DNA from: Dehalococcoidales bacterium
GTDB taxonomy: Bacteria; Chloroflexota; Dehalococcoidia; Dehalococcoidales; UBA5760
DNA: 13,873 bases
Direction of reading: 5' to 3'
NCBI GenBank assembly: GCA_028710655.1
Contig: JAQTTS010000028.1
Coordinates: forward strand, 1-13,873
The translations under genes were made by a program, and so were the position numbers. A model generated the notes under the pieces. The model worked only from the letters and a program-made list of their open reading frames with translations. It was not told where the DNA came from and did not search any database. Positions 171 to 13,873 of this stretch are shown here, one piece after another; the first letter of the stretch is position 1; each line of letters opens with the position of its first letter.

Positions 171-226
171 TTTGATCTGGCTGATTATGTGATAAACTGT
201 TATCCATAAAAAGGGTGGAGGGCCCC

Positions 227-1033
227 ATGACTGTAGCCCATATTCTGATTCTGCTGGCGACCGGCGCCGGCGTGGGGTTTGCCGGCGGCCTGCTGGGGGT
301 AGGCGGTTCCTTTATTATGACGCCGGTCCAGTATCTGGTTTTTACCGATATGGGCATCCCGGTCGATATCGCCGTCAAGCTGGCTTTCGGCACCAGTCTG
401 ATGGTTATTCTCCCTACCGCTGCCAGCGGCGCTTGGAGACACCATGGGGAGGGTGCCGTCTGGTGGCGGGCGGCTGTCATCATGGGGGTGTGCGGCTCGG
501 CCTGTGCCTTCGGTGGAGCGACCCTGGCCAGCTATCTGCCCGGAGCGGGCTTGAAGCTGGCTTTCGGCATCGTGGTTATCGCGGCCGGTGCTGGGATGCT
601 CGTCCGCAGACCGGTAAAGGCTGTTGAGCAACCGAAGAGTAACCCCTGGCTCTGGGTGGCCTGGGCGGCTCCGATCGGTGTGATCAGCGGTCTGGTCGGC
701 CTCGGCGGCGGCGTACTGGCTGTTCCGGTGATGGTGCTGGCGCTCAAGTTCAGGATCCATAGCGCCATAGCGACCTCACTGGCCTTTGTCATGTTTACCA
801 GTATCGGCGGCGTGATCGGTTATATCGTCAACGGGCAAGGTGTCGCCGGGCTGCCCTTGCATTGCCTGGGCTATGTTCATCTGGAGGCCTGGGGTCTGCT
901 GGCGGCGACCAGCATCGGCATGGCGCAGCTCGGGGCAAGGGCTACTCATCGTCTTCCGGCTAACCGTTTGAGATACGCATTCGTCGCGGTGATGTTCTAC
1001 CTGGGCTTAAGGATGCTCGGCGTCTTCGGTTGA
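227..1033 (+). CDS. TauE/SafE family sulfite/anion exporter-like membrane protein
   Basis: 268 residues, almost all hydrophobic membrane segments. It has the two related glycine-rich halves of the TauE/SafE (formerly DUF81) family: an N-terminal segment GFAGGLLGVGGSFIMTP (near residue 15) and a second one, GLVGLGGGVLAVPVM (near residue 155). Members are inner-membrane proteins linked to export or uptake of sulfite, sulfoacetate and other small anions; the substrate here cannot be read from the sequence. ATG 227 is preferred over GTG 215 because GGTGGAGG (215-222) then serves as ribosome binding site; starting at GTG 215 would place that motif inside the gene. It converges on the feoB membrane gene with only 9 bp between the stop codons, leaving no room for a usual bidirectional terminator. 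Confidence 0.85.
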   Translation: MTVAHILILLATGAGVGFAGGLLGVGGSFIMTPVQYLVFTDMGIPVDIAVKLAFGTSLMVILPTAASGAWRHHGEGAVWWRAAVIMGVCGSACAFGGATLASYLPGAGLKLAFGIVVIAAGAGMLVRRPVKAVEQPKSNPWLWVAWAAPIGVISGLVGLGGGVLAVPVMVLALKFRIHSAIATSLAFVMFTSIGGVIGYIVNGQGVAGLPLHCLGYVHLEAWGLLAATSIGMAQLGARATHRLPANRLRYAFVAVMFYLGLRMLGVFG

Positions 1034-1042
1034 ACACTCCTG

Positions 1043-2383
1043 CTATCCTCCGAGAACAACCCTGCCGGTCTGGTAGATGACGGTAGCGGCGACCCAGGCG
1101 ACGGCACAGGTATAGCCGATGGCGAACCAGGACCACTTTGCCGAGGATTCGCTGCGTATGGTGGCAATGCTGGCGGCGCAGGGGATATAGAGCAGGCTGA
1201 AGACCATGAAGGAGAAGGCAACCAGCGGTGTCCAGCCCAGTTGAAACGCCAGAGCACCGCCCAGTCCGGCTTCTCCGGCGGCGAAGATGGCTCCCAGGCT
1301 GCCGACCACGATTTCTTTAGCCAGGAAGCCGAAGACCAGGCTGGCGGCTGCTGGCCACTGGGCAAAGCCGCAGGGGCCAAATACCGGTGCCACAGCACTG
1401 CCTATTCTGCCCAGGATGCTCCCGGCGCTGGCGTACTCTACACCCCAGGGCAGACTGGCCAGCAGCCAGACTACCACCACTGCGGCGAAGATGATGGTGC
1501 CTGCCCTTTTCAGAAAGTGCTTGCCCCGCTCCCACATATGAATCACTGCCCCGCGGAAGGTGGGCAGGCGGTAGGGTGGCAGCTCCATGACGAAGTGCCC
1601 CGATTCTCCGGCAAAAAGGCTCCTACGCAGCATCCAGGCGCTGAAGATGGCGATGCCGATGCCGATCAGGTACATCGCGAAGACGACCAGTCCGGCGCGG
1701 GCGGGAAAGAAGGCTCCGGCGAGGAGGACGAAGATGGGCAGGCGGGCTCCGCAGGACATGAAGGGGGTGACCAGCATCGTGGTCAGTCTGTCTTTGCTGT
1801 TTTCTATCGTCCGGCAGGCCATCACGGCGGGGATGGTGCAGCCGAAGCCCAGTATCATCGGAATAAAAGAACGGCCGTGCAGCCCTATCCGGTGCATCAC
1901 CCGGTCCATCACGAAGGCGGCCCGGGACAGGTATCCGCAGTCTTCCAGGACGGCTATGGCGATGAAGAGCAGGAATATCGGCGGGACGAAGCTGATTACC
2001 GAGCCGACGCCGCTGATGATGCCGTTGCCGAGCAGCGAGCTCCACCAGTCGGGAGAGATGCCCCCCGCCATGCCGGCGAGGTTTCTGAAGCCGGCATCAA
2101 TCAGCTCCATCAGAGGTCCGGAGAGGGTAAAGACGAACTGGAACATCCCGTACATTATGCCCAGGAAGATGGGGATGCCCCAGATACGATGGACCAGCAC
2201 CCGGTCTATCTTGTCCGACGTAGTGGCCTTCTCCACACGCGGCTTTTTCAGGGTGTCCCTGAGCAGGCCGCTGATAAATCCGTATCTCGCACCGGCGATC
2301 ACGGTCTCCGCGTCGTCGCCGAGAATGCTTTTTAAGTGTGCGATGCTCTTGTCTTTAGCCTGGATTATCTCTTCACGACTCAT
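1043..2383 (-). CDS. feoB: FeoB membrane (Gate) part, separate from the GTPase part
   Basis: 446 residues forming the C-terminal two-thirds of the ferrous iron transporter FeoB. Residues 1-55 (with ARYGFISGLL) match the end of the cytoplasmic helical domain. TSDKIDRVLVHRIWGIP (55-71) leads into the transmembrane part. The two Gate signatures are visible: GFGCTIPA (179-186) and PFMSCGARLP (207-216). This is the pore that moves Fe2+ across the inner membrane. A complete FeoB usually has GTPase and membrane parts in one chain; here 226 + 446 = 672 residues together give a full-length protein. The ATG overlaps the TGA of the GTPase gene (ATGA), so translation is probably coupled. There is only a weak AGGG as its own ribosome binding site. 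The split may be natural or due to one old frameshift; both parts keep every expected motif. Confidence 0.92.
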   Translation of the reverse strand: MSREEIIQAKDKSIAHLKSILGDDAETVIAGARYGFISGLLRDTLKKPRVEKATTSDKIDRVLVHRIWGIPIFLGIMYGMFQFVFTLSGPLMELIDAGFRNLAGMAGGISPDWWSSLLGNGIISGVGSVISFVPPIFLLFIAIAVLEDCGYLSRAAFVMDRVMHRIGLHGRSFIPMILGFGCTIPAVMACRTIENSKDRLTTMLVTPFMSCGARLPIFVLLAGAFFPARAGLVVFAMYLIGIGIAIFSAWMLRRSLFAGESGHFVMELPPYRLPTFRGAVIHMWERGKHFLKRAGTIIFAAVVVVWLLASLPWGVEYASAGSILGRIGSAVAPVFGPCGFAQWPAAASLVFGFLAKEIVVGSLGAIFAAGEAGLGGALAFQLGWTPLVAFSFMVFSLLYIPCAASIATIRSESSAKWSWFAIGYTCAVAWVAATVIYQTGRVVLGG

Positions 2384-3060
2384 CTATTGAGCCCTATCTT
2401 CTCCAGCACTTCCCCGTCCTCTTCCAGCAGCTTTATCGCCAGCCAGCGGGGCGGGAATCGCTTTGACAGCTCTTCATCCCGCGTAATCAGTGATTCCAGC
2501 TCCTTGATGTGTTCCTCCAGTTCGTTGCCGTAGAAGAGCTTTACCTTTTCTACGCCGGACCGGCCCTCAAAAGCATCTACTATTGCCTGGAGCAGCCTGT
2601 CGTTGCTTCCCTTTTTCTTGGCGACCATCGGTACTACCGGTGCCCCCAGCTCCCGGGCCAGCTTGTCAACGTTGATCTGGTAGTCCCTGGACCGGGCGAT
2701 GTCCATCATGTTCAGGGCGACTACCAGGTTGGCCTCCAGTTCGATCAGCTGTACGGTAAGGTAGAGGTTTCGCTCCAGGTTAGAGGCGTCCAGAATATCC
2801 ACGACGACATCTGGTGCGCCTTCCAGGATGAAGTTCCGCGCCACTACCTCGTCGGGTGAGTAGGCGGTCAGACTGTAGACGCCGGGCAGGTCGACTACTT
2901 TGACCTGATAGTCTCCGTATCGGTAGCTGCCCTCTTTCTTCTCGACGGTTACCCCGGGCCAGTTCCCCACATGCTGATGGGCCCCGGTGAGGTTGTTGAA
3001 TACCGTTGTCTTGCCGGCATTGGGGTTGCCGGCCAGGGCAACGGTTATCTTGTTAGCCAT
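2380..3060 (-). CDS. feoB: FeoB GTPase part (split FeoB)
   Basis: 226-residue cytoplasmic GTP-binding part of ferrous iron transporter FeoB. G1 is GNPNAGKT (11-18), the switch I region HVGNWPGVTVE (30-40) holds the G2 threonine, G3 is DLPG (57-60) and G4 is NMMD (117-120). Residues from about 165 onward are the helical GDP-dissociation-inhibitor-like domain, cut short after PPRWLAIKLLEEDGEVLEKI. The rest of that domain and the whole pore are in the next gene, whose ATG overlaps this stop codon. GTP binding and hydrolysis by this domain control Fe2+ flow through the membrane part. The gene overlaps the upstream feoA by 8 bp, giving tight operon packing. Confidence 0.93.
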   Translation of the reverse strand: MANKITVALAGNPNAGKTTVFNNLTGAHQHVGNWPGVTVEKKEGSYRYGDYQVKVVDLPGVYSLTAYSPDEVVARNFILEGAPDVVVDILDASNLERNLYLTVQLIELEANLVVALNMMDIARSRDYQINVDKLARELGAPVVPMVAKKKGSNDRLLQAIVDAFEGRSGVEKVKLFYGNELEEHIKELESLITRDEELSKRFPPRWLAIKLLEEDGEVLEKIGLNR

Positions 3061-3298
3061 TGTCCGTTATTTCTACCATAATCTTCAGGGCGACCCCGTG
3101 ACCGAGGACCAGCCTGGAGCCCCTGAGGTCGATCAGGATCGGCCCCGGCATCTGGCTATTGATTACCTTCAGCGTTGTCCCCGGAGTTAAGCCCATATCG
3201 GCCAGCCGCTGCACCAGGCCGTGGCCGCCTCTAATCTCGGCTACCGTAACTTCTTCGTACGGATTAATCATCGCCAGCGGCAGAGACTTCCCGCTCAT
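3053..3298 (-). CDS. feoA: FeoA-type SH3-like protein (second copy)
   Basis: 81 residues with the FeoA pattern: hydrophilic start, VAEIRGGHGLVQRLADMGLTPGTTLKVI, then PILIDLRGSRLVLGHGVALKIMVE. This is a small beta-barrel (SH3-like) cytoplasmic protein that binds or assists FeoB in ferrous iron uptake. It is the FeoA gene next to feoB (8-bp overlap), and its start abuts the stop of the first feoA. Two adjacent, diverged feoA genes suggest the two proteins have separate roles or form a mixed complex; that is inference. Confidence 0.9.
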   Translation of the reverse strand: MSGKSLPLAMINPYEEVTVAEIRGGHGLVQRLADMGLTPGTTLKVINSQMPGPILIDLRGSRLVLGHGVALKIMVEITDNG

Positions 3299-3532
3299 CT
3301 AGTCTACCTCCACCTGGACGTTGACTGCTTCTTCCTTGCGCAGCGACAGTTGATAACCCCGGAGCCTTATCCAGATGGGGTCTCCCATCGGTGCGATACG
3401 CTCGACCACAACCACCGCCGGCGGGATTACTCCCATATCCAGGATGCGCCGGTGGACCTGCCCGTTGCCGCCTACCTTGCTGATGCGGCCATGCTCACCC
3501 ACTCTCATCTCGCCTAAATTCTTGATTGCCAT
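3299..3532 (-). CDS. feoA: FeoA-type SH3-like protein (first copy)
   Basis: 77 residues with the FeoA core: GNGQVHRRILDMGVIPPAV, then GDPIWIRLRGYQLSLRKEEA. It is clearly related to, but well diverged from, the second copy that follows with no gap. The role is accessory to FeoB Fe2+ transport; FeoA proteins resemble the C-terminal SH3-like domain of DtxR-type regulators. The ATG is preceded by GGTAAAGAGGG, whose AGAGGG sits very close to the ATG; the GG at about -12 could also serve. It lies 47 bp after the fur stop with no visible terminator, so it is probably part of one fur-feo transcript. Confidence 0.88.
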   Translation of the reverse strand: MAIKNLGEMRVGEHGRISKVGGNGQVHRRILDMGVIPPAVVVVERIAPMGDPIWIRLRGYQLSLRKEEAVNVQVEVD

Positions 3533-3579
3533 CCCTCTTTACCTTTCTTTCCCGATCCTTTGGGCAGCTCTGGCAGTAG

Positions 3580-4023
3580 CTACTTCCTGTTCTGACGGCA
3601 CTTTGCACAGTATCCGGTCATCTGCACCTCTGCGTCGATGACCTCAAAGCCCTTCTTACGGCTGATTTCCTGCTTCATCTCCGAGCACAGCCCGCACTCG
3701 AACTCGATTACCTGGCCGCAGCCCAGACAGACCAGGTGGTGGTGCTCGGTGGATGGCTTCACCTCGTAGTGGTGGTGGGACTCGGTGAAGTGAAGCTCCT
3801 GTATCAGTCCCAGTTCCTTCAGTGTGCGCAGATTACGGTATACCGTGGACAGGCTGAAGTTGGACTGTATCTGCCGGGCCTGGCTGTAGACTTCATCGGC
3901 ATCCAGGTGTTCGCCGCCACGGTTGATAATATCCAGTATCAGCGCCCGCTGGCTGGTCATCCTCAGTCCGGCCGAGCTCAGTGCCGTGCGCTTAATGACG
4001 GTGCTCTGCTTCTTGGCTGCCAT
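3580..4023 (-). CDS. fur: Fur/PerR family metal-dependent repressor
   Basis: 147 residues. The N-terminal winged helix includes GLRMTSQRALILDII (19-33) and the recognition helix SLSTVYRNLRTLKELGLI (57-74). The dimerisation/metal part has the His cluster SHHHYEV (82-88) and EHHHLVCLGCG (93-103). Structural Zn cysteines are C99/C102 with C139/C142; an extra pair C110/C113 is present. Such proteins bind DNA with Fe2+ (or Mn2+/Zn2+) as corepressor. Being first in line before feoA-feoA-feoB makes an iron-sensing Fur the best call, but PerR or Zur cannot be excluded from motifs alone. AAGGAGA lies just before the ATG. It has its own consensus promoter with an overlapping palindrome, so it is likely autoregulated together with the feo genes. 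Confidence 0.9.
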   Translation of the reverse strand: MAAKKQSTVIKRTALSSAGLRMTSQRALILDIINRGGEHLDADEVYSQARQIQSNFSLSTVYRNLRTLKELGLIQELHFTESHHHYEVKPSTEHHHLVCLGCGQVIEFECGLCSEMKQEISRKKGFEVIDAEVQMTGYCAKCRQNRK

Positions 4024-4043
4024 TCTCCTTGTCGCTAATGATT

Positions 4044-4058
4044 ATTATTTGCAATAAT
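4044..4058. promoter_or_regulatory. candidate Fur operator (AT-rich palindrome)
   Basis: ATTATT-TGC-AATAAT is a perfect 6-3-6 inverted repeat. It overlaps the end of the fur -10 box and covers the predicted start of transcription. The size and AT-rich symmetric form resemble Fur-family boxes, although it is not an exact match to the classical GATAAT-based consensus. Binding by the adjacent Fur protein would shut down fur and the feo genes. The role is inferred. Confidence 0.5.
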
Positions 4059-4085
4059 TATATGATATCGGCCCCCGGCTGTCAA
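4057..4085 (-). promoter_or_regulatory. consensus sigma70 promoter of fur-feo
   Basis: On the minus strand TTGACA (4085-4080) and TATAAT (4062-4057) match both consensus hexamers exactly with a 17-bp spacer. Transcription would begin near 4050, about 27 bases before the fur ATG. It is expected to drive fur and probably feoA-feoA-feoB. Confidence 0.85.
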
Positions 4086-4129
4086 TTTTTGTTTTGGCGA
4101 AAGAGACTTAATATCTTTGGAGTCGGTGC

Positions 4130-4945
4130 TCAGGCTTCCAGTAATTTCTTTATCGCCGGGATGGCATGCCGGGCCGCCCTCTTGCCCAGGAGGATGCATT
4201 CCCGAGCCCGGTTGAAGTTACCGGGCAGGATATGCCCCACTTCCGGTGTAATCACAATATCGGCCTGTCTCAGTCCGTCCAGCGCCGCCTGATAGCCCAT
4301 AATATAGATCATCCGTACCACGATGTTGAAAACGTTCGGTTCTTTCCGGGTTTTGGTATCCACGGCGTCGGTCTTCTTCTTTCTGCCGCCCAGATAGGGT
4401 ACCACATTGACCGCGATGACGATGTCGGCACCCATCTCTTTGGCGGCCCGTACCGGTATCGGTTCGACCAGGGCGCCATCGAAAAGGTAATTATCCTGCC
4501 ACTTGGCCGGAGTAAAGATGACCGGCATCGAGGCGCTGGCTCTCACTGCCGCCACTACCGGGCCCTGCTTGATGACCACCTCCTTGCCGGTGCCGATGTC
4601 GGTGGCCAGGCAGGTGAAGGGTATTTTCAGGTCGGCAAAATCCACATCGCCGATAAGGGACTTGAGCCACCCGTTGATCTTCCTCCCCTTGATGAAGCCG
4701 CTGGTCGATACGGTGAAATCAGCCAGAGACATCATCTTCATCAGGCTCAGTCCGGTCACCGTGTTGGCTATCTCGCCGATATTCTTCCCCGCGGCATAGG
4801 CGGCGCCGATGATCGCCCCGATGCTGGTACCGGCGATCATATCGATGGGGATGCCATTTTTCTCCAGGACTTCCAGCACGCCGACGTGTGCCAGACCGCG
4901 GGCAGCGCCGCTGCTCAGCACCAACCCCACCTTTTTTCGTTCCAA
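4130..4945 (-). CDS. patatin-like phospholipase (RssA-type)
   Basis: 271 residues of the bacterial patatin family. The oxyanion-hole segment is SSGAARG (11-17), the nucleophile elbow is GTSIG with Ser41, and the catalytic aspartate of the Ser-Asp dyad is Asp156 in DGALVEP. RASASMPVIF (135-144) before it is also typical. Such proteins hydrolyse ester bonds of phospholipids or other lipids; the substrate is unknown. There is no signal peptide, so it is probably cytoplasmic. The start is taken as TTG 4945 because the protein begins right at the conserved KKVGLVLSSGAARG and AAGGAG lies 9 bases upstream. It follows the herA gene by 29 bp on the same strand and is likely co-transcribed. The next gene, fur, has its own promoter. 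Confidence 0.88.
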   Translation of the reverse strand: MERKKVGLVLSSGAARGLAHVGVLEVLEKNGIPIDMIAGTSIGAIIGAAYAAGKNIGEIANTVTGLSLMKMMSLADFTVSTSGFIKGRKINGWLKSLIGDVDFADLKIPFTCLATDIGTGKEVVIKQGPVVAAVRASASMPVIFTPAKWQDNYLFDGALVEPIPVRAAKEMGADIVIAVNVVPYLGGRKKKTDAVDTKTRKEPNVFNIVVRMIYIMGYQAALDGLRQADIVITPEVGHILPGNFNRARECILLGKRAARHAIPAIKKLLEA

Positions 4946-7467: not shown

Positions 7468-8670
7468 CTAGACCCACCTTGTCCTCTTGCTCCGGCTCTT
7501 TGCCGAGCTCGGGCTGGGTAGGTTTTCCGCCAGCATCAGCGACTCCACCAGCCGCCAGAAGTTTTCCCGGTCCGCTCCGGTTACCACCGCCTGCTCGTGG
7601 GCTTCGCTCAGCGCAACCGGGTATCCCTGACCGCGACGACACTGGTCCAGAATCAGTGAGTGGGTTAGATTGAGCAGACCCTCATCTGCAGCCACCCACT
7701 GCGGTACCTCTACTCGGGCAGTTTCATCGTCTCCCCTGAGGTAGAAAAAGTAGATCCGGTGCTCGGCGGGGTATTTCTTGATGATTTTTGATCCGCTGGT
7801 AAACAGGCAGGACCGCTCCCCCGGGGCTAACAGTTCGGAGAACAGGTCGCAGTCCCTGATGCCGGCGACTGCCTCGCACTGCCGTTCTTTGCAGTCTTTG
7901 CAGTGGATGTCGGTGTCAGGGGTATCGTGCGGGCAGAGAGCGAGACGCAGTGCATTGACCACCTCGGTGCTGCGGGGGAAGCTGATGTAGCTGGCCAGAG
8001 CTAGTTTCCTGTTCCTGCTGTTAATCCCTTTTATCCGGCCGAGGTGGCTTAAGAAGCCTTTGTCCAGCAGCGCCTCAGCGACGAATTCGGGATAGGCTTC
8101 CAGGCCCCAGAGGACGAGTGTGCCGTCAACCAGCGCCAGGCTGAGGCTGTCCCCGGGCATCTCTGCGGCCAGTTCGGCCAGCTTGCCGCACTCGTCCACG
8201 CTGCGCTTGATGCCTAGCAGTGTTCCTTCTACCACCTGCTCCCGGGTATTATTACCGGTCGGTGTGATGACCAGGTCTTCATCGCTGGAGTAGAGGCTGG
8301 GGAAGCTCTCCAGGGTGGCCTGGGGTGAGCTGCCGTATCGCAGAGCGACGGAGCCGATGTTGATCAGGTAGCAACGGGGCGACCGGTGGCGGTCGACATC
8401 GATGTGAGAGCCGTCGGCTGCCAGAATGCTGAATTCGTCAGGGGCGGGCGGTGCCTTAATACGCCGGTCCAACCCGTCTACCAGACCGGCGACCAGCCAG
8501 GTGGTATTGCTGGATTCAATTTTCTTAGCCAGGGAGCTGATTTTGTCTGCCTGGTTATGCAGGGTATCCAGGGCGAATTCGAGGCGCTGCTGCCTGCGGG
8601 CGGCGTCGTTCTTCAGCCGAATCACCATATCCCCGGCCTGGGGGAATAACTTGTCTAGGTCTAAGGACAC
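7468..8670 (-). CDS. nurA: NurA family 5'-3' nuclease
   Basis: 400 residues with NurA-domain hallmarks: ILAADGSHIDVDRH (82-95) with metal-binding Asp86, LALVDGTLVLWG (178-189) with Asp182, and the C-terminal block GYPVALSEAHEQ (349-360). NurA is a Mn2+-dependent nuclease with an RNase H-like fold that resects DNA ends together with HerA. An unusual central segment carries C246, C257, C260 and C265 (C-x10-C-x2-C-x4-C), which could bind zinc. The N-terminal 55 residues are probably a coiled coil or long helix (DAARRQQRLEFALDTLHNQ). The start is GTG 8670, with AAGGAAGG upstream. It is first in the minus-strand run followed by the small basic ORF, the HAS-barrel gene and herA, fitting one functional unit. 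Confidence 0.87.
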   Translation of the reverse strand: MSLDLDKLFPQAGDMVIRLKNDAARRQQRLEFALDTLHNQADKISSLAKKIESSNTTWLVAGLVDGLDRRIKAPPAPDEFSILAADGSHIDVDRHRSPRCYLINIGSVALRYGSSPQATLESFPSLYSSDEDLVITPTGNNTREQVVEGTLLGIKRSVDECGKLAELAAEMPGDSLSLALVDGTLVLWGLEAYPEFVAEALLDKGFLSHLGRIKGINSRNRKLALASYISFPRSTEVVNALRLALCPHDTPDTDIHCKDCKERQCEAVAGIRDCDLFSELLAPGERSCLFTSGSKIIKKYPAEHRIYFFYLRGDDETARVEVPQWVAADEGLLNLTHSLILDQCRRGQGYPVALSEAHEQAVVTGADRENFWRLVESLMLAENLPSPSSAKSRSKRTRWV

Positions 8671-8959: not shown

Positions 8960-9031
8960 GGCAGCGTAGCTCAGTGGTAGAGCAGGGGACTCATAAGCCC
9001 TTGGTCGGCGGTTCGAATCCACCCGCTGCCA
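8960..9031 (+). tRNA. tRNA with CAT anticodon (elongator Met, or Ile2)
   Basis: 72 nt without encoded CCA. Acceptor GGCAGCG pairs with CGCTGCC, the discriminator is A9031, the D arm is GCTC/GAGC, the anticodon loop is CTCATAA, and the T loop is TTCGAAT. Elongator tRNA-Met is most likely. A CAT tRNA read as Ile after lysidine modification is possible, since the anticodon-to-variable region also resembles tRNA-Ile2. Two stem mismatches are visible: A31-G39 in the anticodon stem and C51-A63 in the T stem. The gene is the integration site of the AT-rich island: its 3' half recurs three times downstream. The T6 run right after the gene may serve as terminator. Confidence 0.9.
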
Positions 9032-9036
9032 CTTTT
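8989..9036 (+). repeat. att copy 1 (in tRNA, host-side junction)
   Basis: Bases from the anticodon loop to just past the tRNA 3' end (starts ACTCATAAGCCC, ends CTGCCACTTTT). The segment is identical over 48 bp to 10725-10772 and over 25-29 bp to the two further copies. It is the junction that keeps the tRNA intact and marks the left edge of the island. Confidence 0.9.
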
Positions 9037-9054
9037 TTATCATAAGCTATAATA

Positions 9055-9822
9055 TTAGAAATCGCTCTTTATCTGGTCAACCGTAATAATATGAGACACT
9101 AGTCTATCTACTGTTTTCTCATCATATCCATGTATATTACCTTTGATATTTCTTAAGTCCTCTATCATTTGGTCTATTTCGTTTTCTTCTCTGACTATAA
9201 CGTATTTAATATCGTCCGCTTCAAAACTTAATCTAGTTGCGTTTGTTTCAAGCCTTCTATTTGCATCAGCCAAAGACACCGTGTTCATATATTGATGGTG
9301 CTGCATAAAACCTATTATACCTGAGTCAGCCAGCACTTTTGCGTTTGGTAGATAGCGCCATTCATGCTCATCATAAAATCGAACGTTATGCGCAATGGTC
9401 TTACCTTCACGATACAAAGTGCCTTCGTATGGTTTGACATACCCCATAGTCTCATGGAAGGCTTGCCCTGTTGGATCAATACTGAGCAGCAATTCGTTCG
9501 TCAGCACACTATAATTTCTTGCCAGATGTGAATTCCTGTTAAAGTATATGACTGGATTAAGCCCCTTGCTTATTCCCCATTGTTTTGTCATGCCTAAGCC
9601 ATATTGCCCATATCGCTCAATATGGTTGATTAGTAAAGACAGAGGGATATCACAAAAACAAACCATGGGAAAGGCATCATGAATAAAATGCTGCTGGTCG
9701 TTATCTATTAGATCGAATTCTTCGTAACAGTATCTAGGATAGAAAGTGTTATCAAGTATCCCTAACAAATTATTGAGGGAGTTTGTAAAGTGAAATAGAG
9801 TATTAGGACTTAAGGTGCTCAT
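9055..9822 (-). CDS. AbiGi-like abortive infection protein
   Basis: 255 residues from ATG 9822, chosen because AGGAGG is 6 bases upstream; the frame is open 17 codons further without such a site. Visible blocks are LFHFTNSLNNLLGILDN (9-25), YPRYCYEEFDL, FPMVCFCDIPLS, YGQYGLGMTKQWGI, GLNPVIYFNRNS and DEHEWRYLP. These match my recollection of the AbiGi family (antitoxin part of the lactococcal AbiG phage-abortive system). The LFHFT start and the EWR motif also resemble DUF2971-type proteins, so an ADP-ribosyltransferase-like fold is possible. No AbiGii partner is in the window. The stop codon is 24 bp from the tRNA end. It is first cargo of cassette 1, divergent from the integrase remnant. Role in phage defence is inferred from the family and setting. 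Confidence 0.7.
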   Translation of the reverse strand: MSTLSPNTLFHFTNSLNNLLGILDNTFYPRYCYEEFDLIDNDQQHFIHDAFPMVCFCDIPLSLLINHIERYGQYGLGMTKQWGISKGLNPVIYFNRNSHLARNYSVLTNELLLSIDPTGQAFHETMGYVKPYEGTLYREGKTIAHNVRFYDEHEWRYLPNAKVLADSGIIGFMQHHQYMNTVSLADANRRLETNATRLSFEADDIKYVIVREENEIDQMIEDLRNIKGNIHGYDEKTVDRLVSHIITVDQIKSDF

Positions 9823-9877
9823 TATGCACCTCCTGTCATTCGGTATTTTACTTTTACCATTGACTATGTTCAATAGA

Positions 9878-9906
9878 ATTATATTACTTGTTAATTTATA
9901 CCCAAA
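9878..9906 (-). promoter_or_regulatory. candidate promoter of the AbiGi-like gene
   Basis: On the minus strand TTTGGG (9906-9901) and TATAAT (9883-9878) are 17 bp apart, about 55 bases before ATG 9822. The TTTGGG is kept in the second copy of the control region (13466-13471), where a TATAGA-like box follows at 18 bp. The -35 match is weak. Confidence 0.4.
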
Positions 9907-10158
9907 CTCTATGCCATCACCTTATTGACCTTCTCCTTCTTACTAGAAGTCGGAACCTAATAGGATTCATAGATAAGGTACCGATTTCTGGTATGAAGCT
10001 ACCATCAGAGCTAAAGTCCTAAAACGTCATCTCAAATTCGCTTGATCTTCTATTAATTCTCCTCTATCCTCTCCCCAAAAAGTAGACGAAAAGAAGGAGA
10101 GGTTCAATGTCTGATTACACAGAGACTACAACGATTACCACTACAAAGCAAGCTATTG
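9901..10158 (+). repeat. integrase control-region repeat, copy A
   Basis: 258 bp, strongly similar (most positions identical, a few small gaps) to 13466-13723. It covers a conserved non-coding stretch with AAGTCGGAACCTAATA and GATTTCTGGTA, a promoter (TTGATC-17-TATCCT), a ribosome binding site, and the first 17 codons of the integrase. The conserved non-coding part may hold recombinase arm-binding or regulatory sites. Confidence 0.85.
10042..10070 (+). promoter_or_regulatory. promoter of the deleted integrase
   Basis: TTGATC (10042-10047), 17-bp spacer, TATCCT (10065-10070). The same arrangement with the same spacing is kept in front of the second integrase at 13608-13636. Confidence 0.5.
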
Positions 10159-10169
10159 TTACTGTATAA
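10107..10169 (+). pseudogene. remnant of tyrosine recombinase (N-terminal 17 codons)
   Basis: ATG 10107, with AAGGAGAGG upstream, reads MSDYTETTTITTTKQAI, matching the first 17 residues of the integrase at 13672 with one change. It then departs into VTV and a stop at 10167-10169. The rest of the integrase is gone from this unit; the sequence goes straight into the leader of the HEPN-like gene. This is best explained by an internal deletion starting after codon 17. The expected product is a meaningless 20-residue peptide. Confidence 0.85.
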
Positions 10170-10212
10170 TTACTGACAGTGTTTGAGTTAAAACCATAAG
10201 GTGTGGGCCATT

Positions 10213-10698
10213 ATGCTATCAGAAATCGAAAGGTATTTTAATGAGTATATCCTGCCTCCAAAAGGTTATATTTACTGTGATATAAAAAGGGAAATTGACT
10301 TGGCTCGTGCCGGTGAATCCGGAGGAAACTTCATCGCAGCTCTTGGGTTGCTGTGTTATACAGAATTCATGGGTAAAATATTGTTGAAGAACAGGGAGTC
10401 ATATACCAAGCAATTCAAAGCCTTCCTTCGTTTAATGGGTGAAGATTATAAGCAGTTGATTGATACAAAAGAGATAGATGTTTACAAGATTTTCAGAAGT
10501 GGAATGGTTTATTCATACTTCGCGAATGATTGTGATATTAAAATGCTTAACGATAATTTCCCTTCTGGGATAATTATTAAATCTGATGGTAAGTACCTTT
10601 TCATTGTTGAAAAATACTTCGAAGATTTCATAAATGCCTGCCAAAGGTTATTTCATAGCCTCATTTCTGAGGAAGATATGGTTCTTCCATCAACATGA
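10213..10698 (+). CDS. small HEPN-like protein of unknown function
   Basis: 161 residues from ATG 10213, with AAGGTG 9 bases upstream; a GTG at 10201 is in frame but lies within that site. The protein is helical, with GGNFIAALGLLCYTEFMGKILL (about 36-57), KQFKAFLRLMGEDYKQL, and YKIFRSGMVYSYF (about 91-103). The order helix - LCYTEF - FRxGxVxxYF recalls HEPN-type proteins, in which the last motif is R-x4-6-H; here Tyr stands where His is expected (R-SGMV-Y), so RNase activity would be doubtful. Family assignment is tentative. The gene ends 26 bp before att copy 2 and follows the deleted integrase, so it is cargo of cassette 1. It could act with the AbiGi-like protein or independently. Confidence 0.6.
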   Translation: MLSEIERYFNEYILPPKGYIYCDIKREIDLARAGESGGNFIAALGLLCYTEFMGKILLKNRESYTKQFKAFLRLMGEDYKQLIDTKEIDVYKIFRSGMVYSYFANDCDIKMLNDNFPSGIIIKSDGKYLFIVEKYFEDFINACQRLFHSLISEEDMVLPST

Positions 10699-10724
10699 AA
10701 GCGCAAAGTATTAGTAGAGGCGAA

Positions 10725-10772
10725 ACTCATAAGCCCTTGGTCGGCGGTTCGAATCCACCCGCTGCCACTTTT
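10725..10772 (+). repeat. att copy 2 (48-bp tRNA 3' end)
   Basis: Identical over 48 bp to 8989-9036, beginning inside the anticodon loop (ACTCATAAG) and ending in T4 after the acceptor end. The sequence before it is unrelated to a tRNA 5' half, so it is not a gene. It is the right-hand junction of cassette 1. Confidence 0.92.
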
Positions 10773-10849
10773 CTTATTTCTCAGTTACATTGCTTGTATT
10801 CTGAGCACCACTGTTTAGAAATTACTCACTACCATTCTTAAGAATTAGG

Positions 10850-10855
10850 TATAAT
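10850..10855 (+). promoter_or_regulatory. candidate -10 box of the nitroreductase gene
   Basis: TATAAT lies 40 bases before ATG 10896. No good -35 is seen at 16-18 bp, so this is a weak call. Confidence 0.3.
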
Positions 10856-10895
10856 TAAACTCGGGAACCAAACGATGGTGAGGAATGCATAGGAT

Positions 10896-11681
10896 ATGAA
10901 TGTAAATATTTCAACATGGTATCCAGCTATATATAGCCGTAGGTCAAGGAGAAGCTATAATCCGCAACCGATAGATCCGAAATTGTTGAATAGTATAAAT
11001 GATTTTTGCCAAAACTTTAGACCTTTTAATAATGCGCGTGCAGTACTGGTTTTACAGCAAGTCGACAAAGCTTTCAGGGGTATAATAGGGCCTAGCGGAG
11101 CTCCAGCTTTTATTGCTTTCGTAGGCAATGTAAATGACAATCATATTCAAGAGAAAATAGGTTATATAGGAGAAGCTGTGATATTAGAGGCAACAAGCTT
11201 AGGGTTGTCTACTTGTTGGGTTGGAGGATTTCTACGTAAGAATATGATTGAAGAATTGGTCGATGCCGATAGCCGTGAGGAAGTATTCGGTCTCACTCCA
11301 ATTGGATATGCCGTAGAGAGAACATCAGTTAAGGAGAATATTATGGCAGGTTTCGGTTGGTCACATCGTCGAAAATCATTATCAAAGTTGGTTTCGGGAC
11401 TGCCAGAAAAAGATTGGCCTGATTGGACAAGAGGCGCTATTGAGGCTGCGAGAATAGCTCCATCGGCTATGAATAGGCAACCATGGAAATTTCATATAGG
11501 GATGGATAGCATTATTATTTCGACTAACGAAACTGGGCATGATTTCAACTTATCCAAGCGACTTGATTGCGGTATTGCAATGCTTCACATTGAAGTAGCT
11601 GCCCTAAACCAGGGCTTGAATGGCAAATGGGAATTATTGGATACCCCAGAAGTGGCTAGGTTTACTATTGATAATACTTGA
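10896..11681 (+). CDS. two-lobed nitroreductase family protein (TM1586-type)
   Basis: 261 residues. The N-terminal YSRRSRRSYNPQPID (13-27) is the usual flavin-phosphate-binding start of nitroreductases. GEAVILEATSLGLSTCWVGGF (around 92-112) is the mid-domain helix and turn. The second half repeats a nitroreductase-like segment, RGAIEAARIAPSAMNRQPWKFHI, and ends with LDCGIAMLHIEVAA. Two half-domains in one chain fit the putative TM nitroreductase family (TM1586-like). Expected activity is FMN-dependent reduction with NAD(P)H; the substrate is unknown. It is the only gene of cassette 2, with its stop 26 bp before att copy 3. A GGTGAGGA ribosome binding site lies 11 bases before the ATG. The AT-rich composition differs from the core genes, in line with transfer. 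Confidence 0.8.
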   Translation: MNVNISTWYPAIYSRRSRRSYNPQPIDPKLLNSINDFCQNFRPFNNARAVLVLQQVDKAFRGIIGPSGAPAFIAFVGNVNDNHIQEKIGYIGEAVILEATSLGLSTCWVGGFLRKNMIEELVDADSREEVFGLTPIGYAVERTSVKENIMAGFGWSHRRKSLSKLVSGLPEKDWPDWTRGAIEAARIAPSAMNRQPWKFHIGMDSIIISTNETGHDFNLSKRLDCGIAMLHIEVAALNQGLNGKWELLDTPEVARFTIDNT

Positions 11682-11707
11682 ATAGAGTCTATTAAATAGC
11701 CATTTCT

Positions 11708-11732
11708 GTTCGAATCCACCCGCTGCCACTTT
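11708..11732 (+). repeat. att copy 3 (25-bp tRNA 3' end)
   Basis: GTTCGAATCCACCCGCTGCC followed by ACTTT is identical to tRNA bases 9011-9035, i.e. the T loop to just past the discriminator. It separates cassettes 2 and 3. Shorter than copy 2, either because it has decayed or because the original element shared less with the tRNA. Confidence 0.88.
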
Positions 11733-11748
11733 GCTTGTTTAAGAGCCT

Positions 11749-12096
11749 CTAGTCAAGCTTACCGTAAGGACCTCGCCACTTATCAGCAAATTCGATAAAT
11801 TTGCCATATCCATTTTCTTTGATGAATTCAATTGATTGCTTGTATTTCTTATATTTATACCCATTTTTATTATAGAAACCCTGAATTATTTCACACGAGA
11901 GATATTTGCCACAGTCGGCGCATGTTTCCAGTTGTCTATCCCTAAAGCAGCATACTTTAATCTTGCATTTCGCTTTATCAATATCCCTATGGCCATTCGA
12001 ATATCCTGTTTTACAGCCGCGACAAATTCCTGCCGAAGTATATGCAGGACAAGTCCCGCAGTAAGCGCCACAGCATCCTATTTCTCTTATAGACAT
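11749..12096 (-). CDS. DUF3795 cysteine-rich protein
   Basis: 115 residues with 12 cysteines in the first 68: C8, C9, C13, C16, C25, C28, C44, C49, C50, C59, C62, C68. The start IGCCGAYCGTCPAY, then GICRGCKTGY and ETCADCGKYLSC, is the DUF3795 pattern. The paired cysteines suggest zinc or Fe-S binding; the biochemical role of the family is unknown. The C-terminal third is Lys/Tyr-rich. The ribosome binding site before ATG 12096 is poor (GGTAG), so expression may be low or leaderless. It is the only gene of cassette 3 and fills nearly all of it: the stop is 17 bp from att copy 3 and the ATG 31 bp from att copy 4. Confidence 0.82.
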   Translation of the reverse strand: MSIREIGCCGAYCGTCPAYTSAGICRGCKTGYSNGHRDIDKAKCKIKVCCFRDRQLETCADCGKYLSCEIIQGFYNKNGYKYKKYKQSIEFIKENGYGKFIEFADKWRGPYGKLD

Positions 12097-12126
12097 GTAA
12101 AACTACCATGAATTAAGACAAACTGT

Positions 12127-12155
12127 TTCGAATCCACCCGCTGCCACTTTTTTAT
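12127..12155 (+). repeat. att copy 4 (29-bp tRNA 3' end)
   Basis: TTCGAATCCACCCGCTGCC followed by ACTTTTTTAT equals tRNA region 9012-9040. Unlike copies 2 and 3 it also keeps the complete T6-A-T that follows the tRNA gene. It separates cassette 3 from the open-ended cassette 4, and its last base is already part of the stop codon of the next minus-strand gene. Confidence 0.88.
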
Positions 12156-12751
12156 TAGGATTTACTGTATTCTCCTCTCCTCTTCTTTGGGTGGATCAAT
12201 ATTTTAACTCCTTTTTCCTTGAATTCTACATGCATTGTGTCTGTTACAATAAAAAAATCGTTTACTGTTCCTCCCATTCTTTTTAACGATTCAGCGGGAA
12301 AAGAAAGGCGGCTAACAAAATCATATCTCGATCGAGATAATAAATTGCGTTTAAGAATGGAAACATGAAAAATATCATCTTCGCCGATATAAATTATGTC
12401 TTCAAGAAGATTCGGACAAGGATTTTCATCCAATCTGCGGTTGTCAAATTTACCTAAGGTTGCTTTCTTTGTAGTCCATCCATACATCCTCAATATTGAG
12501 GGGAACATTTTTTGGGCCTCTTTGTTGTGATATTCCCATCTATAATATCGTCTTTCAAATTCTTCCGGATATTCCGTTAGAAGTCTTCTTAAGTAAATAT
12601 TTATCTTTTTCTCGTAGAATTTGCGCGTTTTCAAATGAATGTTATACCCTATGACATCTTCTGGGTTATTGCCCGATAATTCTCTGACCAGATTCATTTC
12701 CTGCTCGTTAGTTAGGACAACATGAATGTCTTTATGACTCCAGAAGAACAT
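12155..12751 (-). CDS. unknown cassette protein
   Basis: 198 residues I do not recognise. It is rich in charged and aromatic residues, with no membrane segment or signal peptide. A basic middle part (RRLLTEYPEEFERRYYRWEYHNKEAQKMFPSI is in residues about 55-86) precedes a C-terminal region of probable beta strands (DDIFHVSIL, NDFFIVTDTMHVEFKEKGVKILIHP) and a basic tail. AGAGGTG is a fair ribosome binding site before ATG 12751. It is probably co-transcribed with the upstream RNase H-like gene 42 bp away, and its stop codon touches att copy 4. As cargo next to an integrase it may be a defence or toxin-type gene, but nothing in the sequence shows that. Confidence 0.65.
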   Translation of the reverse strand: MFFWSHKDIHVVLTNEQEMNLVRELSGNNPEDVIGYNIHLKTRKFYEKKINIYLRRLLTEYPEEFERRYYRWEYHNKEAQKMFPSILRMYGWTTKKATLGKFDNRRLDENPCPNLLEDIIYIGEDDIFHVSILKRNLLSRSRYDFVSRLSFPAESLKRMGGTVNDFFIVTDTMHVEFKEKGVKILIHPKKRRGEYSKS

Positions 12752-12794
12752 TTTTACACCTCTATAAGTCTTGACAATATCACTGGTGTTTATT

Positions 12795-13376
12795 TCATTT
12801 CATAACTTGTATAACAGGTGGTATGCCAAAATCCATTCCAAAGAGATTTGAAACACTTTCTATTATATCGGTTCTATCTACTGACAAAGATGAAGGTTCA
12901 CATATGTACCTATAGCTGTCAGGTGCTTTTATTGCATCTCTAAGCAAAATGACATCTTCTAAATGATTTGACCTTTTAGTCTTTATTTTATAGGAGACAA
13001 GTCCTTCAAATAGTTTAATATTGCAATCTGGATTTATCTCTAAGATTCTCTTCATAAGATATAAAGTGGCAACCATTACAACACACCCAGGTCCGACATA
13101 CCAATACCGCTTTTGATTACCTCTTTTATCTATGCTTCTACCTTTTGGATTACCGTATTTATCAAAGGCTACAGATAATGGAGCTTCGATCACAAAATTA
13201 ATATTGTCACTCTTTTCCAGGATTTCTATTACCGTTTGAATGGCTGCATCGAACCGGTAGCTTTTTGGGTCTCCATCCTGTAGAAGTAGTCCACAACTTC
13301 TTTGATTATTAGAAAAACCTATATCTAAAATGAGCCATGTATTATTTGACCATTTAATATCTTTAGTAATCCCGGC
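12795..13376 (-). CDS. RNase H-like-fold protein of unknown function, 5' end broken or frameshifted
   Basis: The open frame from 13376 to the stop at 12795 has 193 codons but no ATG; the first GTG (13193) would remove a well-formed N-terminal part. That part reads TWLILDIGFS, then about 35 residues on FDAAIQTVIEILE, then NINFVIEAPLSVAFD and WYVGPGCVVMVATLYLM. A short first strand with D-x-G and a later VIEAP strand recalls RNase H/actin-like folds such as DUF429, but this is tentative. An ATG at 13384 with AAAAGG 9 bases upstream would enter this frame if one base were added between 13374 and 13384, giving M-I-E-x-G-I-T-K-D-I-K-W. A one-base deletion, sequencing error or ATT start are the options. 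It is likely in operon with the next gene. Confidence 0.55.
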   Translation of the reverse strand, partial: AGITKDIKWSNNTWLILDIGFSNNQRSCGLLLQDGDPKSYRFDAAIQTVIEILEKSDNINFVIEAPLSVAFDKYGNPKGRSIDKRGNQKRYWYVGPGCVVMVATLYLMKRILEINPDCNIKLFEGLVSYKIKTKRSNHLEDVILLRDAIKAPDSYRYICEPSSLSVDRTDIIESVSNLFGMDFGIPPVIQVMK

Positions 13377-13465
13377 TCAATCATATTTTGATGCCTTTTA
13401 CTTCTTTCTATACAAGTTAATGGATTATAACAGCGTATAACTCTATAGTCTATGATTATTTTACA

Positions 13466-13723
13466 CCCAAACTCATGCCTACATTTCTCTTGCCCCTCTC
13501 ACTTCTTACTAAAAGTCGGAACCTAATATGATTCATATATAAGGTATCGATTTCTGGTAAGAAGCCATTAATTTAGCCACCGGACGAAAATCGTGTCTAA
13601 AATTCGCTTGATCTTCTCTTGATTCTCCTCTATCCTCTCCCCAAACGTAGACGAAAATAAGGAGAGGTTCAATGTCCGATTACACAGAGACTACAACGAT
13701 TACCACTATAAAGCAAGCCATTG
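13466..13723 (+). repeat. integrase control-region repeat, copy B
   Basis: Counterpart of 9901-10158. The conserved non-coding part, promoter, ribosome binding site and integrase N-terminal codons are all kept. The first part of the preceding gap (13377-13465) contains nothing I recognise beyond the possible start region of the minus-strand gene. Confidence 0.85.
13608..13636 (+). promoter_or_regulatory. promoter of the integrase
   Basis: TTGATC (13608-13613), 17-bp spacer, TATCCT (13631-13636), about 36 bases before ATG 13672. It is conserved with the copy at 10042-10070 although the spacer has changed, which supports function. Confidence 0.55.
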
Positions 13724-13873
13724 ATGGTTTTCTGCTATCCTGCAAAGTTGAGGGTAGATCATACGGAACTATAGACTGTTATGCCGATAAACTAAAGGGA
13801 TTTCTCTGGTATGCTACTAACTACAAATGGCCAGATGATATCTCAGCTATTACTACGCAGCATTTACGGGAAT
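13672..13873 (+). CDS. tyrosine recombinase/integrase, N-terminal part (runs off the edge)
   Basis: 67 residues up to the window edge, starting MSDYTETTTITTIKQAID. The segment AIDGFLLSCKVEGRSYGTIDCY (about 16-37), LKGFLWYA and ITTQHLRE follow the pattern of the SAM-like core-binding N-terminal domain of tyrosine recombinases (four helices, here about 12-67). The catalytic domain (R-H-x-x-R-Y residues) lies beyond the window. AAGGAGAGG, about 5 bases before the ATG, is a strong ribosome binding site. It is the likely enzyme that inserted these elements into the tRNA(CAT) gene, and it could still act on the other att copies in trans. Its first 17 codons match the integrase remnant at 10107. Confidence 0.85.
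   Translation, partial: MSDYTETTTITTIKQAIDGFLLSCKVEGRSYGTIDCYADKLKGFLWYATNYKWPDDISAITTQHLRE

Follow-up and report, generated by a model that had tools for sequence, protein, structure and literature searches.

A probable tRNA-Met-anchored additive island with single-gene units in a Dehalococcoidales bacterium

Copies of the 3′ end of a tRNA-Met gene, all in one orientation, divide the DNA downstream of that gene into a tandem series of units in a Dehalococcoidales bacterium, and arrays of this kind recur with different contents in related genomes. We consider the array to be probably an additive island, anchored on a tRNA and grown by accretion, and not an integron. The window analysed here (the whole stretch of 13,873 nucleotides) comes from an uncultured relative of Dehalococcoides, in a lineage that has relatives of importance for dechlorination. 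If the small units of such arrays are mobile in themselves, this would help to explain why, among close relatives, one fixed place holds a variable set of genes, among them those for a metal ATPase, a Rieske protein, a nitroreductase and a defence protein.

The anchor tRNA, its copies and the genes between them

The anchor is a tRNA-Met (CAT) gene on the plus strand (8960..9032), located by ARAGORN and with one C-A mismatch in the T-stem; its 3′ half plus CTTTT forms the native att region (8989..9036, plus strand). Three att copies follow on the same strand. The first (10725..10772) is of a long type, being identical from near the anticodon loop onwards (48/48 nt), while the second (11708..11731) and third (12127..12151) are of a short type, with identity starting at the T-loop in the second. 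Exactly four instances of a 21-nt core, TTCGAATCCACCCGCTGCCAC, are present in the window, always on the plus strand; the chance expectation for this core was 0.00 (mean of 200 dinucleotide shuffles). This substantiates the preliminary description, which had seen the tRNA 3′ end four times in one orientation. In register, the downstream copies lie at +1736, +2697 and +3115 from the tRNA-Met 3′ end. Of the unit lengths proposed earlier, 1736 bp thus stands, 983 bp becomes 961 bp, because two unlike left edges had been compared, and the third, given as about 419 bp, is 418 bp.

The shared core is about as long as a tRNA primer-binding site, as would suit a retroelement that primes on the tRNA 3′ end and leaves a copy behind. 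We regard this origin as hardly conceivable: the copies reach the T-loop or the anticodon loop, those in the window lack CCA just as the tRNA gene does, and no reverse transcriptase appeared among the Pfam matches of 40 array-region proteins, which represent part of the ORFs.

Upstream of the tRNA lies nurA (7468..8670, minus strand), in a flank common to two relatives, L141 and L142. Unit 1 holds an AbiGi-like gene (9055..9822, minus strand; PF10899, E = 8.7e-37; PADLOC AbiGi, E = 1.2e-57), an integrase remnant that consists of a leader and the first 17 codons followed by a stop (9936..10158, plus strand), and a 161-aa ORF without family match (10213..10698, plus strand). The lone gene of unit 2 encodes a TM1586-type nitroreductase of 261 aa (10896..11681, plus strand; PF14512, E = 3.4e-45), and that of unit 3 a DUF3795-like protein of 115 aa (11749..12096, minus strand), which scored 21.8 bits in Pfam against a cut-off of 22.6, and several named relatives of which bear the DUF3795 annotation. 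Units 2 and 3 have att sequences at both ends, belong to the units with short, T-loop-type ends and hold one non-integrase gene each; that two units consist of a single gene, as first described, was upheld when ORFs of at least 60 aa were picked greedily. Unit 4 contains two ORFs without family match, one of 198 aa (12155..12751, minus strand) and one of at least 132 aa whose frame is open further upstream (12795..13193, minus strand). These are followed by a repeat of the unit 1 integrase leader (13502..13671, plus strand) and by the N-terminal 67 codons of a tyrosine-recombinase-type integrase (13672..13873, plus strand). The window ends inside this gene, with no att copy to its right, leaving unit 4 open. 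The fragment's own Pfam match is weak (E = 0.08), and its relative in L193 matched PF13102 with E = 8.1e-8. Leader and integrase 5′ end are 82-93% identical between units 1 and 4, in agreement with the earlier claim that both carry, or carried, the same integrase.

The leader motif was rejected as a general unit end: it was found twice in the window, once in L142 and not at all in 1.16 Mb of control sequence. A second motif was present in the window and in L142, plus one weak match in L183. Positions 9033-13873 matched neither plasmids (near mode) nor phages (distant mode). In viral contigs, the window integrase N-terminus and the L193 integrase had no relatives, and a long att pattern gave 0 hits.

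Recurrence and variation among relatives

We surveyed 156 genomes of the order, 155 of which matched the tRNA. Eighty places were taken, mostly the best tRNA matches and a few for a nearby integrase (e.g. in G059, G103 and G117), some places near contig ends being passed over; 78 of the 80 (all except L217 and L218) had a usable tRNA. In this non-random sample of genomes that are not independent of one another, 21 of 79 loci (20/78 relatives plus the window) had at least one downstream same-strand copy, nine at least two and six at least three; many sampled loci are short, so that absent copies are partly absent sequence. Among the relatives with at least 2.5 kb downstream, 44 of 60 had no copy at 2 mismatches. 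Copies accompanied 17/61 tRNA-Met genes with at least 2.5 kb downstream versus 0/31 other tRNAs in the sampled loci. A stricter scan of the 79 loci found no upstream and one reverse copy, and a permissive scan 57 forward versus one reverse copy in 788 kb. What separates the units is thus the tRNA 3′ end, repeated directly on the same strand, as in additive islands. A T-rich run follows 29/37 copies, compared with 10.9% of background windows, and array G+C is lower than that of the upstream flank in 21/21 cases.

Every array found sits on a contig of at most 126 kb, with no copy at any of the ten sampled loci on contigs of at least 1 Mb, several of which are close kin, and three close relatives of the window integrase stand at a contig end. 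Such a distribution could be expected from an assembly artefact or chance repeats. We nevertheless hold that origin to be very unlikely, given a chance expectation of 0, a strand ratio of 57 to 1, pairs of orthologous units whose lengths agree between two relatives (551 and 553 bp; 1070 and 1070 bp), and the L164 and L165 arrays, which are internal to contigs of 126 and 120 kb.

Close relatives of the window differ from it in array content at the same locus. L141 is 91.7% identical to the window upstream flank over 1909 bp and L142 is 88.1% identical, yet the contents of all three arrays differ; unlike units at one locus, as additive islands show, were likewise seen for L188/L202 and L152/L153. 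L141 and L142 have ATPase, hydrolase and Rieske units in common (93%), whereas their tRNA-adjacent units differ, and an att-DUF1847-flavodoxin module (90%) stands at different att copies in the two. The pattern of common distal and differing proximal units also holds for L188/L202. All these comparisons use one genome per species, in which gain and loss look alike. Variation of cassette number, content and order among relatives, predicted from the window, was therefore found, order between L141 and L142 only; a single arrangement in all relatives, which would have spoken against the prediction, was not what we saw.

Around the nearest order-level homologues of the window nitroreductase (12 loci) and DUF3795-like gene (five loci), a search with 64 observed tails gave no copy (2 mismatches, up to 1.5 kb), and hence neither cassette was seen moving. 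The window tail alone, searched around the same 17 loci, gave one chance-like match with 4 mismatches, at L223.

Two boundary classes and the integrases

Unit ends fall into two main classes. Where the copy is long, beginning near the anticodon loop, the unit that it closes is larger (median 3884 bp); where it is short, beginning at the T-loop, the unit is small (median 722 bp; Mann-Whitney p = 5.5e-4). Identity at positions 23-42 was 0.93 for long ends versus 0.31 for short ends. Six of 37 ends are intermediate, and short-type ends might be partly decayed long-type ends. Nineteen of 37 units measure 1 kb or less, and 16 of the 24 short units have one ORF.

In L175 and L277 an att copy lies directly beside a full-length integrase, and in L166 and L203 an integrase adjoins the tRNA. 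The last two were considered as candidates for an intact-integrase element with short-type ends and were discarded, since the 6.8 and 9.1 kb available, respectively, contained no att copy. Among the matches listed (to about E = 1e-9), PF00589 occurred within one of 20 relative arrays (L175), so in most arrays the mover was not seen. Scanned proteins from 21 of the 24 short units, covering part of their ORFs, contained no PF00589.

Could the units simply be decay products? They would then be remnants of integrase-bearing islands or of cis-mobilizable elements (CIMEs), with single-gene units left by deletion and no special cassette form. Remnants of the window integrase family do lie in two long-ended units (unit 1 of the window and of L142) and in one short-ended unit (L165 unit 1), and integrase 5′ remnants cut at different points occur in L164, L165 and L213; tandem islands without integrase are moreover described for Dehalococcoides, where accretion of CIMEs was the proposed way of spread (PMC3146451). 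Against this, the short units still have an att copy on either side, which should not come back through deletion alone, and many of them contain a complete gene that can be recognised; their left boundary differs from that of the longer units; and in a tblastn scan of the sampled loci with 13 queries, L165 unit 1 was the only short unit that matched an integrase. Decay alone is a possible explanation of these arrays, and one we rank below an even chance.

For the additive island that we favour, we suggest the following course. Elements would insert successively, at a specific site within the 3′ portion of the tRNA-Met gene. Each would bring its own 3′ end and the T-rich run after it, by which the tRNA would stay whole, and at each insertion the earlier 3′ end would be pushed outward as a direct repeat; the outcome would thus be a layered array with newer units nearer the tRNA. 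Crossover would take place near the anticodon loop for long units, which may carry a tyrosine integrase at one end, and at the T-loop for short units, usually with one accessory gene and in few cases an integrase. As most short units show no integrase, they would have to be mobilised in trans or be carried along within a neighbouring unit; we infer that such mini-units are probably moved in trans. The resident integrase, to which the preliminary description ascribed a possible role in moving the non-autonomous units, is a candidate mover; remnants of its family lie in long-ended and in short-ended units, and the two single-gene units of the window are short-ended.

The T-stem of the resolved tRNA-Met genes was mismatched in 34/69 cases versus 2/62 for other tRNAs, counts that leave out 10/79 and 5/67 unresolved genes respectively. 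These mismatches are compatible with 3′-tail exchange. As a mark of occupied loci they were rejected, occurring at 11/19 loci with copies and 23/50 without (p = 0.43). A further proposal, which we find doubtful, is integron-like capture on a tRNA: a separate recombinase, specific for the T-loop, would act in trans to insert sub-kilobase single-gene cassettes with T-loop-to-acceptor ends, and the tRNA-Met 3′ tail would be swapped at every insertion, with chimeric T-stems as a record of captures. If short units prove mobile in themselves, exchange of single genes via a tRNA end would form a second, integron-free route to cassette arrays, and would make it possible to test directly whether an integrase can rewrite the tRNA that it uses.

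Relation to known systems

Precedents exist for much of this organization, namely the ssrA islands of Dehalococcoides, CIMEs and additive flexible islands. The ssrA islands (McMurdie 2009, PMC2764846; McMurdie 2011, PMC3146451) share with our arrays the related hosts and tandem units behind one RNA gene, whose 3′ end recurs at their borders as a direct repeat of 20 bp; 15 of 31 have no integration module, and for these the proposal was that they are cis-mobilizable elements which accretion has spread. They differ in using tmRNA as target and serine recombinases (DsiB) and in carrying many rdhA genes, whereas at the array loci studied here the target is tRNA-Met, the integrases seen are of tyrosine type, the boundaries form two main classes and 19 of 37 units measure at most 1 kb. 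CIMEs are integrase-less segments that keep attL and attR and stack by site-specific insertion; they are described as decayed ICEs or IMEs (PMC5704250), while our short units are often of single-gene size and differ in their boundary from the longer ones. Units 2 and 3 of the window show the CIME pattern, with att sites on both flanks and one gene each that is not an integrase.

Additive flexible islands place cassettes at a conserved tRNA, and partial-tRNA direct repeats are reported for all three examples (Actinomarinales, PMC7771536; Alteromonas, PMC4119200; Methylophilaceae, PMC10872708); in Methylophilaceae the islands measure 330 bp to 42 kb and hold 1 to 63 CDS (PMC10872708). They concern other phyla and other tRNAs, and the accessible parts of these three reports describe neither boundary classes nor mismatches in a tRNA stem, nor a module that stands at different att copies. 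Tycheposons, which have a tyrosine recombinase and are associated with tRNAs (tRNA-Met among them), also form flexible islands and are large (4-200 kbp), as cited in PMC10872708. New with respect to these precedents are the single-gene scale, the T-loop boundary and T-stem mismatches compatible with 3′-tail exchange.

The preliminary description had called the array integron-like. In the strict sense that term is not supported. What holds is that att-bounded, often single-gene units stand in tandem at one tRNA; an open-ended string of exchangeable single genes does recall integrons (described in PMC4119200), as do the common short site and the diverse functions. A true integron, with attC cassettes gathered by an IntI integrase, is extremely improbable all the same. 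No IntI was found: four integrases beside tRNA-Met ends scored at most 80 bits against the TIGR02249 cut-off of 265 bits, a comparison of relatives' integrases in which L193 is partial and L166 and L203 are slightly cut; the available part of the window integrase comprises 67 residues. The sites are tRNA 3′ ends, and the genes of single-ORF units are of mixed orientation (15 minus, 6 plus). Nor was any attC seen; in a crude folding test (RNA parameters, 100-nt windows, means only) the short copies equalled the background, both at -17.4 kcal/mol. The long copies folded at -22.9 kcal/mol, as expected of tRNA arms.

Copies of the tRNA-Met 3' end in the window

The window contains a single tRNA-Met (CAT) gene at 8960-9032, adjoined by NurA and HerA genes that are both transcribed away from the tRNA. 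The 3' end of this tRNA recurs on the same strand at 10725, 11708 and 12127, and its 21-nt core, which occurs four times in the window, was absent from shuffled sequences. In register, these att copies define units of 1736, 961 and 418 bp; unit 4, beyond them, is open, lacking a distal copy in the available sequence. Unit 1 carries an AbiGi-like gene, an integrase leader (the sequence preceding the integrase gene) that runs into 17 codons ended by a stop, and an ORF of 161 aa; units 2 and 3 carry a nitroreductase and a DUF3795-like gene respectively, and two ORFs plus the beginning of an integrase gene lie in unit 4. Relatives of the DUF3795-like protein (65-70% identity; records with an organism name, a minority of the 120 listed of 792 matches) carry the names Methanocellales, Methanosarcinaceae, ANME-1, Bacteroidetes, Chloroflexota and Dehalococcoidales, and the gene family therefore spans wide taxonomic distances. 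Elsewhere in the window (215-4945), translations were assigned by eye to a sulfite-exporter-like gene, FeoB in two ORFs, FeoA-like genes and a Fur-like gene.

Recurrence at tRNA-Met in relatives

The best 80 HerA matches showed 52-76% identity in their best segment and bore titles such as Dehalococcoidales, Dehalococcoidia, Chloroflexi and SAR202. We searched the 156 genomes of the order to which genome G002 belongs, which we infer to be Dehalococcoidales because it includes genomes so titled (e.g. those of loci L001, L007, L010 and L013). The tRNA was matched in 155 of these genomes and the integrase N-terminus in 42. Six of the seven closest integrase relatives (68-88% identity) lay on the same contig as tRNA-Met, and the seventh, at a contig end, adjoined a partial tRNA-Met copy.

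Eighty places were fetched from relatives, and tRNA-Met was obtained in 78. Counting as a copy any downstream match to the locus's own 18-nt tail with ≤ 2 mismatches, 21 of 79 loci (78 relatives plus the window) had at least one copy, nine at least two and six at least three; the 21/79 is not a prevalence, since the sample is biased towards tRNAs resembling that of the window. At the same threshold, the 79 loci contained no upstream tail copy and one reversed copy, and a permissive scan of 788 kb (≤ 5 mismatches in 22 nt) returned 57 forward matches versus 1 reverse. Where ≥ 2.5 kb of downstream sequence was available, 17 of 61 tRNA-Met genes had downstream copies, versus none of 31 other tRNAs in the fetched loci. 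The window-type tail pattern matched 20 times in 8 of 12 whole genomes, and 18 of these matches, counting the eight native tRNA ends, were on the contig of the tRNA itself. Against generality, none of the ten places taken from contigs of at least 1 Mb had a forward copy.

Boundary classes, integrases and array turnover

Among 37 closed units (bounded by att copies), 7 terminate in a long copy, whose identity reaches the vicinity of the anticodon loop, and 24 in a short one, whose identity starts at the T-loop; the other 6 are intermediate. Over positions 23-42, counted from the end, long, short and intermediate copies have identities of 0.93, 0.31 and 0.54 respectively. Median size is 3884 bp for long-ended and 722 bp for short-ended units (P = 5.5e-4, with units of related genomes not being independent). 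A single ORF was found in 1/7 long-ended and 16/24 short-ended units, 'single gene' being approximate as ORFs of ≥ 60 aa were picked greedily. The cargo of single-ORF units is varied: methyltransferase, GNAT, FKBP, chagasin-like inhibitor, hydrolase and DUFs.

At L175 and L277 a full-length integrase directly adjoins an att copy, and at L279 a partial one does; in L166 and L203 the integrase adjoins tRNA-Met itself. L175 (genome G004) has a 14.4-kb island at tRNA-Met (oriented about 1480-15850) whose full tyrosine integrase adjoins the distal att copy, making it a candidate autonomous element. Pieces of the window integrase family or its relatives occur in long-ended units (unit 1 of the window and of L142), a short-ended unit (L165 unit 1), open units at L164 and L213, and L204, a locus without any counted copy. 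What remains of the integrase gene is a set of 5' pieces with differing codon cut points (window 9936-10158 and 13502-13723; L142, oriented 3187; L164, L165, L204 and L213). By eye, the leader in the window and L142 contains an imperfect palindrome in the GGAACCTAATATGATTCATATATAAGGTATC region, a possible operator or arm site.

The upstream flank of the window is 91.7% identical to that of L141 (1909 bp) and 88.1% to that of L142. On the downstream side no unit of the window recurs in either locus, and matches are confined to the tRNA ends and to short stretches in or close to the integrase leader. In L141, a methyltransferase unit (709 bp) is followed by a unit that includes a P-type metal ATPase, a PF20603 hydrolase unit (551 bp) and a 1070-bp unit orthologous to the Rieske unit of L142. 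In L142, a unit of 5.1 kb containing a TPR/NTPase-like gene precedes one that combines DUF1847 and flavodoxin with the metal ATPase also present in L141, followed by a PF20603 hydrolase unit (553 bp) and the Rieske unit (1070 bp). An att-DUF1847-flavodoxin module, 90% identical between the two and starting at an att copy in both, lies past the Rieske unit in L141 and ahead of the ATPase in L142. Relatives with 87%-identical flanks therefore differ in the number, content and place of their units. Likewise, L188 and L202 have a DUF6498 segment in common and different proximal units, while L152 and L153 share a DUF6629 unit, L153 having additional DNA adjoining the tRNA.

The sites, their strand, the boundary classes and the differences among relatives are established by the sequences themselves. 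These arrays fit a model in which elements inserted repeatedly and site-specifically at the 3' part of tRNA-Met, each insertion making the tRNA whole again. Insertion would proceed by tyrosine recombination, the array presumably growing on the tRNA side, and short units would be moved in trans or together with their neighbours. The general kind of array is already known. At Dehalococcoides ssrA, tandem islands have 20-bp repeats, and 15 of 31 are described as lacking an integration module (PMC3146451); tRNA-Ala fragments adjoining rdhA genes are also reported from Dehalococcoides (PMC2764846). Close parallels are CIME accretion (PMC5704250) and additive islands bearing tRNA repeats (PMC10872708, PMC7771536, PMC4119200), which in one of these cases can be as small as 330 bp with a single CDS. 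Among the papers listed in literature searches, judged mostly by titles and opening lines of abstracts, none dealt with tRNA-Met arrays of this type in the order. The tRNA-Met array is a variant by its single-gene scale, its boundary classes and its recurrence across the order at one tRNA.

Mismatched T-stems in tRNA-Met

Position 63 of the tRNA, in the T-stem, is the most variable of the copied 20-nt core (identity 0.73). Among fetched relatives, at least one mismatched T-stem pair (C-A, A-C or U-U) was present in 34 of 69 resolved tRNA-Met versus 2 of 62 other tRNAs. The mismatches fit a scenario in which crossovers at the T-loop swap 3' tails, and in L160 the tail kept in a distal copy is predicted, by eye, to pair perfectly with the mismatched T-stem. 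However, they group into five sequence classes, most of which are common to several genomes, single point mutations could equally account for them, and they showed no association with detectable copies (P = 0.43). The anticodon stem of the window tRNA-Met also apparently ends, by eye, in an A-G pair (31-39), which is likewise seen in the tRNA-Met sequences of relatives that were inspected.
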